Part shown: in pieces, positions 28,086-56,546 of the stretch
Numbering within the stretch: the first letter of the stretch is position 1
Layout of the letters: each line of letters begins with the position of its first letter
Origin: Xanthomonas sp. AM6
GTDB taxonomy: Bacteria; Pseudomonadota; Gammaproteobacteria; Xanthomonadales; Xanthomonadaceae
DNA length: 64,000 nt
Reading direction: 5' to 3'
Assembly (NCBI RefSeq): GCF_025665335.1
Contig: NZ_CP106869.1
Location: forward strand, 4,428,501-4,492,500
Program-made: the position numbers and the translations under genes
The notes under the pieces: model-generated
The model's input: only the letters and a program-made list of their open reading frames with translations
Database searches by the model: none
What the model was told of the DNA's origin: nothing

Positions 28086-28195
28086 GCGCATTGCCGCGGC
28101 ATCGGATGCGCGTCCTGCGCTGATCAGAGTGTGCGAGGGCTGGTCCCGGAAAGAGGACAAGCGCCGTTCCTATGGGCCGGCGACTGGCGGTGCAC

Positions 28196-28532
28196 TGTAG
28201 GAGGGCTTCAGCCCCGACTGGTCCGGCGCCTGAACGTCTGCCGCTTCGCTCGTCGCGACTGAAGTCGCTCCTACAAAGAAGCCGGGACGCCTGTTGCGTG
28301 CCGCGGGAGGAACTTCGGTCCCCTGGTCCGGCGCCGGGAAGCTCGCCGCTTCGCTCGTCGCGACTGAAGTCGCTCCTACAAAGAAGCCGGGACGCCTGTT
28401 GCGTGCCGCGGGAGGAACTTCGGTCCCGCCTGGGTCCGGCGCCGGGAAGCTCGTCGCGACTGAAGTCGCTCCATAGCGCATCCGGCCGGCATTCGGTGTG
28501 CCGCTTCTTGTGGGAGCGACTTCAGTCGCGAC
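28196..28532. repeat. REP cluster with a 105-bp tandem unit
   Basis: Five half-sites occur in about 340 bp: 28196-28218, 28252-28275, 28357-28380, 28453-28475 (last bases degenerate) and 28509-28532 (GTGG type). The second and third lie in nearly identical 105-bp units (starting 28242 and 28347) that also share AAAGAAGCCGGGACGCCTGT and a GGTCCGGCGCCGGGAAGCTC block; the fourth is a truncated unit. The interval 28086-28726 otherwise holds no gene. Confidence 0.88.
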
Positions 28533-28726
28533 GCGACGGTCCGTCAGCGGCCGGCTTCGGAAGCCGTCGCGACTCCTGACACTGCCCGGATCGCCTGGCG
28601 CGCAGTTCGGGGCGATTCCCTCGGGTTCGCCATTGCGTCCGTCCCACCCTCGGCCAGCGCGGCAAGCGCACCGTTTCGCGCGGTTCCGGCTGGCCGAAAC
28701 CATCGCTCGCGCAGGAGCCGCCTGCC

Positions 28727-29050
28727 TCAGTCGTCGAATGGATCGGCCACGGCAGCGCCGCCGTTCGGGCGTGGCGTGCGCTTGCCCGGCTTGCTGCGGA
28801 TCTCGACGTAGAACTGGGTGGCGCCGGTCGCCACCAGCGCGTCGATCGCGCGGATCAGTTCGGCCGGCGGCAGCACCGCGGCGCTGGCTTCGTCGGCGCC
28901 GAACAGCGTGTCGAAGTCCCAGTAGTCCGCGCCGGCCGGCAGCGTCTTGCGGCGCTCGCGGCGGATGTACTTGCGGATGTCGTGCTTGCTGGCGTCGAGC
29001 AGGCGGTCGGGGTGCTTGCCTTCGATGCGGAGCTGGTAGGTCTTCTTCAC
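28727..29050 (-). CDS. DUF6172 family protein
   Basis: A 107-residue small protein starting with GTG (VKKTYQLRIEGKHPDRLLDA). The pattern KHDIRKYIRRERRKTLP followed by DYWDFDTLFG and FYVEIRSKPGKRTPRP is that of the DUF6172 family of short basic cytoplasmic proteins of unknown role. A GTG start is chosen because no ATG or TTG lies upstream before unrelated sequence and because conservation begins at this codon. It is divergent from the SDR gene, with 210 bp between. Confidence 0.82.
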   Translation of the reverse strand: MKKTYQLRIEGKHPDRLLDASKHDIRKYIRRERRKTLPAGADYWDFDTLFGADEASAAVLPPAELIRAIDALVATGATQFYVEIRSKPGKRTPRPNGGAAVADPFDD

Positions 29051-29260
29051 TGCGGGAGGATCCTGGAAAAGGGGGAACGCGGCCGCCGGACGCGACGCGT
29101 CGGCGCTCGCTGGCGGACAGGCCGGGCCCGGCTCGGGCCTGCCTGCCGTCGGCGGCAGGCGGGCGCGGCGGGCCGCCATGGTGCCAGAACCCGGCCCCGC
29201 GCTGCGGATTGGCCGACAATCGGCGCCTGGCGCACTCCCGCGCCGCCGCAGGAGCCGCCG

Positions 29261-51526: not shown

Positions 51527-52447
51527 TCACTGCATGCGTTGCTCCGCCTGCCGCACCCAGGCCGCCGCCGCGGCCAGGCTGCCGAACTCTTCCACCGAGC
51601 GCGCCTGGCAGTCCGGCAGCAGCGCGCGCGCGATGCGCGCCAGCGCGCCGCCCGGCCCCAGTTCCAGGAACACGCGCGCGCCGCGCTCGGCGGCCTGGCG
51701 CAGCGTCCCGGCCCAGTCCAGCGTCGTCGCCAGCTGCGCCGACAATGCGGCGACGGCGTCGTCGCGGTCGCCGATGCGGTGCCCGTCGATGCCGGCCAGC
51801 AACGCGGCGCGCGGCGCGGCCAGCGGCGAGGCGCGCAGGTCGCCGGCGAACGCCTGCGCCGCGCTCGCCAGCAGCGGCGTATGCGCGGCCACCGCCACCG
51901 GCAGGCGTGTGGCCCGCGCCCGCAGCGCACGCGCCTGCCGCTCGCCTTGCGCCAGCGCATCGGCATGGCCGCCGAGGATCAGATGGTCGTCGCCGTTGAC
52001 GATCGCGATGTGCAGGCCGGTCTGCGCGCACAGCGCCTCGGCCGCGTCGCGCAGCAGACCCTGCACCGCGATCAGGCCATCGCCGTTGCGGCTGGCGGCA
52101 TCCATGCGCTGCGCGCGTTGCACCGCCAGCGCCAGGCAGGCGGGCGCGTCCAGGCCGCCGCCCAGCGCATGCGCGGCCAGTTCGCCGATGCTGTAGCCGA
52201 GCAGCAAGGCCGGCGCCGGCAACTGCGGCAGCAGCGCCGCGGCATTGGCCAGTGCCGCGGTGCAGACCAGCGGCTGCGCGATCGCGTTGTCGTAGCGCGC
52301 GTCGTCGCCGGCCAGCACGCGCGGATCGGCACCGAGCACCTGCGCCGCCGCGGCCAGCACCGCCTCGGCCGCGGGATCGCCGGCGATGTAGTCGAACATC
52401 GCCGGGTGCTGCGCGCCCTGTCCCGGGCAGAGCAGGGCCAGGCTCAT
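51527..52447 (-). CDS. mdcH: Malonate decarboxylase epsilon subunit (malonyl-CoA:ACP transacylase)
   Basis: A 306-residue FabD-like acyltransferase. The N-terminal LLCPGQGAQHPAMFDYIAGD and the nucleophile elbow LLGYSIGELAAHALGG (Ser in GYSIG) are present. The catalytic His is in VAVAAHTPLL. It charges the MdcC prosthetic thiol with malonyl, to start the catalytic cycle. Its ATG overlaps the mdcB stop by 4 nt (ATGA). Confidence 0.92.
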   Translation of the reverse strand: MSLALLCPGQGAQHPAMFDYIAGDPAAEAVLAAAAQVLGADPRVLAGDDARYDNAIAQPLVCTAALANAAALLPQLPAPALLLGYSIGELAAHALGGGLDAPACLALAVQRAQRMDAASRNGDGLIAVQGLLRDAAEALCAQTGLHIAIVNGDDHLILGGHADALAQGERQARALRARATRLPVAVAAHTPLLASAAQAFAGDLRASPLAAPRAALLAGIDGHRIGDRDDAVAALSAQLATTLDWAGTLRQAAERGARVFLELGPGGALARIARALLPDCQARSVEEFGSLAAAAAWVRQAEQRMQ

Positions 52448-53940
52448 GGCTGCTCCTGGCGATGCAGGAAGCAGGTGCAGGCGAGCAGGTCGGCGCTGCC
52501 GCCCGGACTCAGCCGGCGCGCCACGAACGCATCGCCGAGGCGTGCGAGTCGCTGCTGCCAATCCTGCTGCTTCACGCCACCGGCATCGAGGAAGGCCTGC
52601 GCGCTGCGTTGCGCGAAGCGCAGGCCGTCGCGGCCGCCGCGGTGCAGCAGGTTCAGGTCGTCGGTGTGCGCGATCAGCTGCAGCAGGGTCTGGGCCATGG
52701 CCGCGTCGTGCGCGAGGCCGGCATGCAGCGCGCCGCGCAGCGTCGGCAGCGCAATCTCGCGCAGCAGCGGGAATCCGTCGGCAGCCTGTTCGCGCACGCC
52801 GGCGACGCCATGCGCACGGCGCATGCGCTGGCCATGGCTGTGCGGATCCAATGGCGCGTCCAGCAACGCCTCACGCCACAGGGCGACCGCGTTGCAGACC
52901 GCCTCGCCGGTCGGTGCCGCGGATGCCTGGTTGCGCAACCGCGCCGCTGCGGCGACCAGCAGCCCCAGACTGAAGATCGCACCACGATGGGTGTTGATGC
53001 CGCCGGTGGCGCGCAGCATGGCGCGCTCGGCGCCGATGCCGAGCTGGCGCAGCATCGCGAACGGCGCCTCGGCCGCGCCGGCGGCGGCGATCGCGACGAA
53101 GTAGCCGCGCAGCGCGAACAGGCTGCGCAGGAAGGTGCCCGCATCCATGTCGTCGTGGCTGCCGCGATCGAACGGCGTGACCAGCCCGGGCTTCGGCGCG
53201 CAGGCCAGTTCCGCATGCAGGCTGGCGACGGCGAGACGGCCGAGGCGATGCGGGGTGGGACCGCAATCGGCGTGAGCATGCTGCCGGGTTGCGCGAACCC
53301 GCCGCGTTTCGGCGGCGGCATTGGCAATGGTCGCCGCGGTCTTCGCCGCTGCACGTGCCGATTGCGGGTTGCTTGCGCGTTGCCCTGCGTGCGACGCATC
53401 GGTGTGGACCGATTCCGATACCGGGAGGCCCCCCGCTGCGTTCGTCGCGACTGAAGTCGCTCCCACAGGACGTGACGCGCGGCTGGATGGTTCCGCTGGG
53501 GAATGGGCGTCGGCGCCGACTGCTTCAAAGGTCGGAAGGATCCCCGCTGCGTTCGTCGCGGCTGAAGCCGCTCCTACAGGATGCGGAGAGGGGCTGGCTG
53601 GATTCGCCTGGAAACGGGTTTCGGTGCCGAAAGCTTCCGACTCCCGGGAGCTCGCTGCTTCGTTCGTCGCGACGGAAGTCGCTCCCGCAGAGATTCGCGG
53701 ATCGCTGGCGACCTGCACTGTGGGAGGGACTTCAGTCCCGACGGCTTCCGAAGCCCGGAGGTTCGCCGCTGCGTTCGTCGCGGCTGAAGCCGCTCCTACA
53801 GGGGGCGGTGAATGATCGGCTGGCTTCACTGCAGGACGGGCTTCAGTCCTGGCCGCTTGTGGCGCCTCCCTGTCCGCGGCGGCGGAAGCCAACGCCGCAA
53901 CGCTGTCGTCCTCCATGCTGCGCTTCGCCTGCAGGTCCAT
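52444..53940 (-). CDS. mdcB: Triphosphoribosyl-dephospho-CoA synthase with REP-encoded N-terminal extension
   Basis: 498 residues, against about 280-300 for the family. The MdcB/CitG core begins at about residue 226 (RLGRLAVASLHAELACAPKP, GLVTPFDRGSHDDMDAGTFL, GGINTHRGAIFSLGLLVAAA). The start overlaps the mdcG stop (TGATG), and no ATG, GTG or TTG occurs between the last repeat and the core, so the extension should be translated. Residues 46-170 contain five repeat-derived blocks of the form VGA[AT]S[AV]ATN[AE]AA, encoded by REP half-sites. The enzyme makes the precursor of the 2'-(5''-phosphoribosyl)-dephospho-CoA prosthetic group. Confidence 0.9.
   Translation of the reverse strand: MDLQAKRSMEDDSVAALASAAADREAPQAARTEARPAVKPADHSPPPVGAASAATNAAANLRASEAVGTEVPPTVQVASDPRISAGATSVATNEAASSRESEAFGTETRFQANPASPSPHPVGAASAATNAAGILPTFEAVGADAHSPAEPSSRASRPVGATSVATNAAGGLPVSESVHTDASHAGQRASNPQSARAAAKTAATIANAAAETRRVRATRQHAHADCGPTPHRLGRLAVASLHAELACAPKPGLVTPFDRGSHDDMDAGTFLRSLFALRGYFVAIAAAGAAEAPFAMLRQLGIGAERAMLRATGGINTHRGAIFSLGLLVAAAARLRNQASAAPTGEAVCNAVALWREALLDAPLDPHSHGQRMRRAHGVAGVREQAADGFPLLREIALPTLRGALHAGLAHDAAMAQTLLQLIAHTDDLNLLHRGGRDGLRFAQRSAQAFLDAGGVKQQDWQQRLARLGDAFVARRLSPGGSADLLACTCFLHRQEQP
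53444..53800. repeat. Five REP half-sites inside the mdcB reading frame
   Basis: Half-sites at 53444-53467, 53555-53578, 53666-53689 (one mutated end), 53719-53743 (opposite orientation, GTGG type, mutated centre) and 53777-53800, spaced by 75-115 bp with related spacers. All are in a phase that keeps mdcB open. A further worn copy lies near 53831. Confidence 0.92.
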
Positions 53941-54593
53941 CACGCCTCCCATGCCTGCAGCAGCGCCGCGCGCGGCTGCAGCCGGCAGTCGCGCAGCGCC
54001 TTGACCAGCAGTTGCGCGCTGTCGCCGGCGAGCTCGCGCCAGCTCACCGCGCTGCCGTCGGGCAGCAGCACTTCGCCGTCGGCGCGGCGGCCGTGGCGTT
54101 GTTCCCAGCGCGCCAGGTCGGCGAGCAGCGCGGTGGCCTGCGCCGGCGTGGGCAGCTGCCACAGCAGGTCGATGTCCGAGCCGGCATGCACGTAGGGCAA
54201 GCCGGTCAGCGCCTGCCAGGCGAAGGCGCCGAACACGCGCGGCGTCAGGCCGTGCGTGGCGGCCAGCGCCTGCAGGTCGCGCAACGGCTGTTGCCATTCG
54301 GGGGGCGCCTGCAGCTGCGCGCAGACCTCGTCCAGCGTCAGCGGCGGGCGGTGCCGCACCACCGCGCCGCGCTCGGCCGACAGCGACAGGCGCTGCTTGC
54401 CCTCGGCCGGCGGCAACGGCACGCCGAGACGCAACAGCTCCGGATCGTCGCCGCGATCGCCGCGCGCCACGATCGCCGGGTGCCCGGCCGCGAACCACGC
54501 GCGCAACCGCGCCTGCGCGCCCGGCGTGCGCGCCTGCCACGGCGCATCGGCCGCCAACCAGACCAGGTCGTGCCGGGCAGGCGGCTCATGCAT
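53940..54593 (-). CDS. mdcG: Phosphoribosyl-dephospho-CoA transferase (malonate decarboxylase holo-ACP synthase)
   Basis: A 217-residue nucleotidyltransferase. The catalytic metal motif [11 protein letters not shown] (G-S-D-x-D) is at about residues 138-148, preceded by [20 protein letters not shown]. It attaches the phosphoribosyl-dephospho-CoA group to MdcC. The start overlaps the end of mdcE by 8 nt, and the stop overlaps the mdcB ATG. Length is normal. Confidence 0.92.
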
Positions 54594-56319: not shown

Positions 56320-56546
56320 TCGGGGCTGAAGCCCCTCGCACAAGGTTTCGCGCAAACGTGACATCCACTGTGGGAGCGACTTCAGTCGCGACGAACGAAG
56401 TCCGAATGGCGCCCGCCGCGCATGCCGTCGGAGCCGAAGCAACTCCCACAAGCGCGCGGCCCTCTGTAGGGGCGGCTTCAGCCGCGACGAACGGAGCCGA
56501 CATGTCCCAGGCTGCGCGCACAGCCGGGGCCACAGCCCCTCCCACA
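56320..56546. repeat. REP cluster separating mdcC from mdcD
   Basis: Four half-sites: a worn one near 56320-56342, a GTGG-type at 56369-56392, a GTAG-type at 56464-56488 and a worn one near 56520-56546. They fill the 394-bp gap (56205-56598) within the mdc operon, where other mdc genes overlap or lie within 10 bp. No gene is seen in the gap. Confidence 0.85.

Follow-up and report, generated by a model that had tools for sequence, protein, structure and literature searches.

The malonate decarboxylase gene mdcB of Xanthomonas sp. AM6 encodes a catalytic core preceded by about 230 residues in which repetitive extragenic palindromic (REP) elements are read in frame. The gene lies in a 64,000-nucleotide stretch of the genome (NZ_CP106869.1, positions 4,428,501 to 4,492,500 of the forward strand; hereafter the window, with features in it given by window position). 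We conclude, with a probability of roughly 0.8, that this extension is a translated, tolerated and probably disordered spacer that arose by insertion of REP sequence between the start codon and the core. The REPs appear to lie in a genuinely translated frame because that frame was kept in all 11 mdcB-bearing genomes found in the genus, while control REP arrays drift in phase. A first reading of the window made from the letters alone (the sequence-only reading) had proposed that the extension is coding, and this comparative frame-keeping makes that very probable.

An in-frame REP array between the mdcB start and the MdcB core

The mdcB frame occupies 52444..53940 on the minus strand (498 amino acids plus stop) and contains no internal stop. 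As the sequence-only reading had stated, its ATG (53938-53940) overlaps the TGA of mdcG as TGATG, and the start has a good ribosome site, a Shine-Dalgarno (SD)-like GGGAGG within the end of mdcG, 4 nt before the ATG (53945..53950, minus strand; −10.2 kcal/mol with the anti-SD sequence). The gene mdcG itself spans 53940..54593 (minus strand; TIGR03135, 203.7 bits against a cut-off of 99.7). A profile match above the curated cut-off predicts that MdcB belongs to the triphosphoribosyl-dephospho-CoA synthase family: residues 231-495 match TIGR03132 (327.3 bits, cut-off 282.35, profile positions 2-271 of 272), and residues 235-493 match the Pfam family PF01874 (CitG), which places the core at 52447..53250. 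These matches move the start of the core from about residue 226, as first proposed, to about residue 231, and lengthen the extension from about 225 to about 230 residues (residues 1-230; 53251..53940, minus strand). The extension had no Pfam family match at E up to 1.

Four forward REP half-sites, spaced exactly 111 bp apart, lie within the extension on the minus strand. Half-site 1 (53774..53799) and half-site 3 (53552..53577) both encode VGAASAATN with 0 mismatches to the REP pattern, half-site 2 (53663..53688) encodes AGATSVATN with 2 mismatches, and half-site 4 (53441..53466) encodes VGATSVATN with 0 mismatches; the protein thus contains four VGAASAATNAA-type blocks. Two inverted half-sites were also recognisable, one at about 53720-53742 (53720..53742, minus strand; VGTEVPPT; offset 198, phase 0) and a degenerate one at about 53831-53853 (53831..53853, minus strand; offset 87, phase 0). 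The presence of REPs in an open frame was therefore borne out, although the count is four forward plus two inverted half-sites rather than five. Likewise, the description of the extension as made largely from REPs holds for the 37-residue units, which cover roughly residues 30-185, but the palindromes proper make up only about one fifth (150 of 690 nt) and are flanked by a non-repeat head (about residues 1-29; 53854..53940, minus strand) and a non-repeat tail (about residues 186-230; 53251..53385, minus strand). The tail contains no in-frame ATG, GTG or TTG.

The repeat in mdcB is a short palindromic repeat present at high copy number in the genome, with 624 matches at up to 1 mismatch and 0 for a backward control pattern; in the window, 28 matches were found at up to 3 mismatches, and shuffled sequences gave a mean of 0.00. 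The palindrome head carries GTAG (GTAGGAG) in two of the four mdcB copies and reads GTGGGAG or GCGGGAG in the other two. The genome has a single Y1_Tnp match (27.1 bits, cut-off 23), a candidate REP-associated tyrosine transposase with only a putative link to the mdcB REP. This locus (L130, G000:C1:4747623-4747892; L numbers are our locus labels) has a REP-like site on either side.

The reading frame of the extension is kept in every mdcB-bearing genome found in the genus

A search of 20 genomes of the genus, the window's own included, found mdcB in 11 and no match in the other nine, so the gene is patchily present. Every one of the 11 has a homologous REP-bearing extension of 119-287 aa with 1 to 6 forward half-sites, which answers the question of copy-number variation raised by the sequence-only reading. 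In all 11 the start overlaps as TGATG, the extension length is divisible by 3 and the frame is open into the core; the 11 extensions combined contain 0 stops in 2052 codons. Because the extension is common to every relative in the genus in which mdcB was found, it cannot be put down to a recent event in a single strain. The same architecture in ten further species genomes, six of them single-contig assemblies, also leaves next to no probability that an assembly or sequencing error fused an intergenic REP array to mdcB, even though repeats in general misassemble easily.

The length of the extension changed repeatedly without loss of frame. On a tree of the core (rooted on L011; support values not shown), at least 6 length changes were counted for the head, taken to run from the start to the first forward REP detected, and at least 5 for the tail, all of them multiples of 3. 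With the changes treated as independent, the chance of 11 such changes would be roughly (1/3)^11 if frame were irrelevant. The L004 array shows a slip of phase in one unit (spacings of 112 then 113 bp) that is corrected downstream. The relationships of the extension ends among L001, L002, L004, L006 and L009 disagree with those of the core: the head of the L001 extension is closest to L006 (87%) and its tail to L009 (85%), and L002 and L004 have a common tail (88%) although the core tree does not make them sisters. A likely explanation of this discord is that lineages exchanged their repeat regions.

Control REP arrays in the same genome drift in phase

As controls we used same-strand REP pairs 95-125 bp apart in this genome, of which 100 of 109 were listed and 99 lay outside mdcB. 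Spacings in these 99 pairs had a mode of 111 bp (21 pairs), so that the spacing of the mdcB array is also found elsewhere in the genome, and they were random modulo 3 (29/33/37). Only 2 of the 24 listed arrays with two or more spacings keep phase throughout. We examined 20 of these 24 arrays, leaving out 28249-28475 (in phase) and those starting at 3052707, 4492252 and 4558997. Multiples of 3 made up 22 of the 70 spacings in the 20 control arrays, in comparison with 26 of 26 forward half-site spacings in mdcB (looser pattern, up to 4 substitutions). The VGA frame was open in 2 of the 20 control arrays (at least 3 of 21 if the window array 28249-28475 is counted) and in 0 of the 13 with four or more REPs. 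The corresponding mdcB values were 11/11 and, for arrays with four or more REPs, 4/4 by the control rule (5/5 by the looser rule). Fisher tests that ignore shared ancestry gave 9e-7 (11/11 vs 2/20) and 4e-4 (4/4 vs 0/13).

REP-bearing frames across the genome yielded 121 repeat-peptide matches, mdcB included, from 150 scored of 247 candidates. Nine such frames were judged by eye, without a family scan, and in none did the array seem to lie within a conserved protein. In one, L127, REP sequence lies upstream, in frame, of what we take to be an NAD synthetase-like protein with its own start. The window array 28249-28475 has spacings of 105 and 96 in a 349-aa open frame (28170-29219, minus strand); it overlaps a frame that looks more gene-like by eye, and its openness is probably due to chance.

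Several observations weigh against a translated, tolerated spacer. First, a stricter rule, which takes the strand with more hits, gave 23 of 25 mdcB spacings as multiples of 3; the two exceptions are the 112 and 113 of L004, which cancel. Second, the 11 mdcB arrays have common ancestry, and the control arrays are all from a single genome, may not all be intergenic, and omit 4 of 24, one of them in phase. Third, the generic REP array L121 is open over 122 codons without being a gene, its frame continuing into an Arg/His-rich translation that by eye resembles the antisense of another gene; an open frame alone was for this reason rejected as proof of coding. Fourth, the ratio of nonsynonymous to synonymous variation (pN/pS) indicates some constraint on the head (0.75), the tail (0.73) and the second aligned REP copy (0.47). 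Finally, an ATG precedes the core by two codons in 6 of the 11 genomes, and fair internal ribosome sites occur in some relatives (for example L009 GTG92, −7.0 kcal/mol; L005 TTG50, −6.6; L004 ATG101, −6.0).

Translation most likely began at the mdcG stop before the REPs arrived

The state of the locus in related genera bears on where translation starts. In 42 of 47 named loci mdcB has a neighboring mdcG match, the two matches lying 59 to 167 nt apart; this distance was 59 to 83 nt in nine Stenotrophomonas/Pseudoxanthomonas loci. A search of the family matched 41 of 297 genomes, one of them weakly (E 1.5e-4). In 21 further family loci the phase between mdcG and mdcB was the same throughout, and the gap was 56 to 65 nt in 11 and 125 to 374 nt in nine, all of genus g17. 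No REP was detected in the g17 gaps (sense strand only, up to 2 substitutions), and their N-termini appear to represent the same permissive site occupied by other sequence.

In all of these 30 family loci (the nine and the 21, sets that may overlap, as L058 and L076 look alike) the mdcB start overlaps the mdcG stop as ATGA or GTGA, and at 20 loci no more than 16-21 codons separate it from the core. Most likely, then, this start predates the REPs and the array entered existing coding sequence, and lineages most likely gained in-frame sequence repeatedly in the stretch between start and core. Whether a core-only form is ancestral had been posed as a check by the sequence-only reading, and the data support a form with the start near the core as the ancestral one.

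Two observations on insertions at this site in other genera are recorded here in their own right. The g17 loci (L061, L062, L066, L067, L069, L071, L072, L074 and L075) have longer in-frame mdcB N-termini, with 41 to 124 codons before the core. At L059 (G020, genus g2), a 566 nt gap holds an in-frame mdcB insertion that contains a REP-like stretch and a duplicate of the first 28 core residues; this duplicate (89% identical) lies upstream of the intact core.

One alternative is that the extension is an untranslated leader, with initiation beside the core and the REPs acting as an intercistronic RNA element. The ATG found close to the core in some genomes is what such a leader would need, and a survey of intragenic REPs warns, in its excerpted text, that REPs at predicted N-termini are often perhaps extragenic (PMC3733652). 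However, that ATG is missing from the window and four other genomes. In the window, the claim that no start codon lies between the last repeat and the core held up: the last in-frame ATG, GTG or TTG before the core is the GTG at 53466, with which the last REP opens, and no other occurs until M265, which already belongs to the core. Where the core-adjacent ATG is present, its ribosome site is weak (anti-SD pairing of +1.9 to −4.5 kcal/mol), whereas the overlapping start pairs at −5.6 to −10.2 kcal/mol in all 11 genus genomes; the best internal ribosome site of the window's mdcB is ATG9, at −2.9 kcal/mol. Nor would a leader be expected to stay in frame over at least 11 changes of length while other arrays drift, and it does not fit the 30 of 30 related loci that start on the mdcG stop. 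We therefore consider an untranslated leader improbable and favor a translated extension.

Selection on the extension acts mainly on the frame

If the extension is translated, one may ask whether its peptide sequence matters. We compared pN/pS among 111-bp units, using arrays with at least two such units (16 units from 6 mdcB arrays and 26 units from 7 control arrays) and excluding unit pairs that differed at over half of sites. The mdcB units gave 0.94 pooled and 0.90 within arrays, near the 1.01 and 0.96 of the control units, 7 of 26 of which contain a stop in the VGA frame; the median for the MdcB core was 0.30. The first aligned REP copy gave 1.03. A value for the whole extension (median 0.85, 55 pairs) was set aside in favor of the unit-level values, as it mixes non-orthologous units. 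Selection thus appears to keep ribosomes in frame, with little acting on the peptide in most repeats, and the second REP copy and the ends of the extension may be exceptions. Ala, Ser and Pro are abundant in the extension, which has 69% disorder-promoting residues in comparison with 56% in the core and is probably disordered, as judged from composition only.

These values bear on the possibility that the extension is a functional domain under sequence-specific selection, for example for partner binding or localisation. Its presence in every mdcB-bearing genome of the genus and the constraint noted above on head, tail and second REP copy are consistent with such a domain. Against it, the repeat units evolve almost like the controls, the length ranges from 119 to 287 aa, and 20 of the 30 related loci have only 16-21 codons in its place; a dedicated domain is about as improbable as the leader. 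The sequence-only reading had left open whether the enzyme tolerates or uses its repeat domain, and our data support tolerance but not use, given near-neutral repeat codons with mild constraint in the head, the tail and one REP copy.

A somewhat stronger competitor, still unlikely in our judgment, accepts translation but holds that REP hairpins in the mRNA are retained because they adjust how strongly mdcB and the downstream mdcH are expressed in proportion to the structural subunits. Synonymous variation (pS) is lower in the first two REP copies (0.17 and 0.19) than in the stretches between (0.27 and 0.35), and REPs have been proposed as RNA control elements (PMC3733652, excerpted text). However, repeat turnover or conversion would also yield low variation, and the number of forward copies varies from 1 to 6.

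A proposed route from REP insertion to protein

A translated, tolerated spacer could have arisen as follows. A REP-containing element would have inserted between the start and the core in an ancestor of the genus's mdcB lineage and would have been translated, translation being forced because mdcB starts on the mdcG stop and the window copy lacks a good start closer to the core. Units of about 111 bp would then have expanded, shrunk and been exchanged, with frame-breaking changes purged so that only frame-open changes survived. The whole extension would be made as protein, a flexible, disordered arm that leaves the core undisturbed and has little or no sequence-specific function. We give even odds to a broader proposal, that, with mdcB starting on the mdcG stop, the interval up to the core acts as an insertion trap. 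On this view a REP array captured there has become a domesticated coding arm, locked in frame and nearly sequence-free, that is exchanged between species and whose repeat turnover generates new protein sequence.

These results suggest that an enzyme of malonate use can bear an arm that approaches its core in length and has a sequence of little consequence, and they suggest a route by which mobile repeats may become bacterial protein. The locus also provides a comparative test, since one repeat family in one genome drifts in phase elsewhere and is locked in mdcB. The excerpted survey left undecided whether many REPs at predicted N-termini are translated or reflect start-site errors (PMC3733652).

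Comparison with known intragenic repeats

The sequence-only reading had held that REPs are normally thought to be confined to intergenic DNA. This view is outdated, as intragenic REPs and in-frame Rickettsia elements have been published (PMC3733652, PMC10969869; for these and the papers cited below, our statements refer to excerpts). Over half of the inserts in the REP survey encode 20-30 aa and the largest clusters 43-82 aa, and the REP-bearing genes include some in X. campestris and X. oryzae (recB, and tRNA synthetases in X. oryzae) (PMC3733652). Those GTAG/CGTC REPs resemble the ones in mdcB in lying in open frames of real proteins, often near the N-terminus; unlike them, MdcB has 37-aa units in tandem within an extension, 119-287 aa long, that is seen in 11 species genomes and whose frame was tested against controls. 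No paper on REP-derived MdcB extensions was found among the top matches of searches in an open-access library. The MdcB extension is thus an unusually long, conserved and testable case of a phenomenon, the intragenic REP, that is itself already published.

Three other systems offer partial likenesses. Rickettsia palindromic elements are alike in manner, being small palindromes in frame within protein genes (PMC3733652, PMC10969869), but they insert in many different genes, whereas mdcB is one gene with a tandem array of a different element. Palindromic amphipathic repeat coding elements (PARCELs) are likewise coding repeats in tandem whose DNA has dyad symmetry and whose copy number varies, but their motif is amphipathic and 25 residues long, in open reading frames without assigned functions, many with membrane-targeting sequences (PMC2996958); MdcB has 37-residue, Ala-rich units fused to a metabolic enzyme. 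Arrays of the bacterial interspersed mosaic element (BIME) type share the alternating forward and inverted half-sites at regular spacing (PMC2817692), to which mdcB adds a frame constraint, the array being inside coding sequence.

The malonate decarboxylase operon in the window

The window carries a malonate decarboxylase operon on the minus strand, in which mdcB is placed by the predicted identity of its neighbors. The order around mdcB includes MdcE (Pfam, above cut-off), MdcG (above cut-off) and an MdcH-like acyltransferase, which scored 284.2 bits, below the NCBIfam cut-off of 297.9, and 53.4 against 32.7 for Pfam Acyl_transf_1. A second REP cluster occurs in the operon at 56370-56491 (plus-strand REPs), apparently intergenic, between frames that look like mdcC and mdcD.
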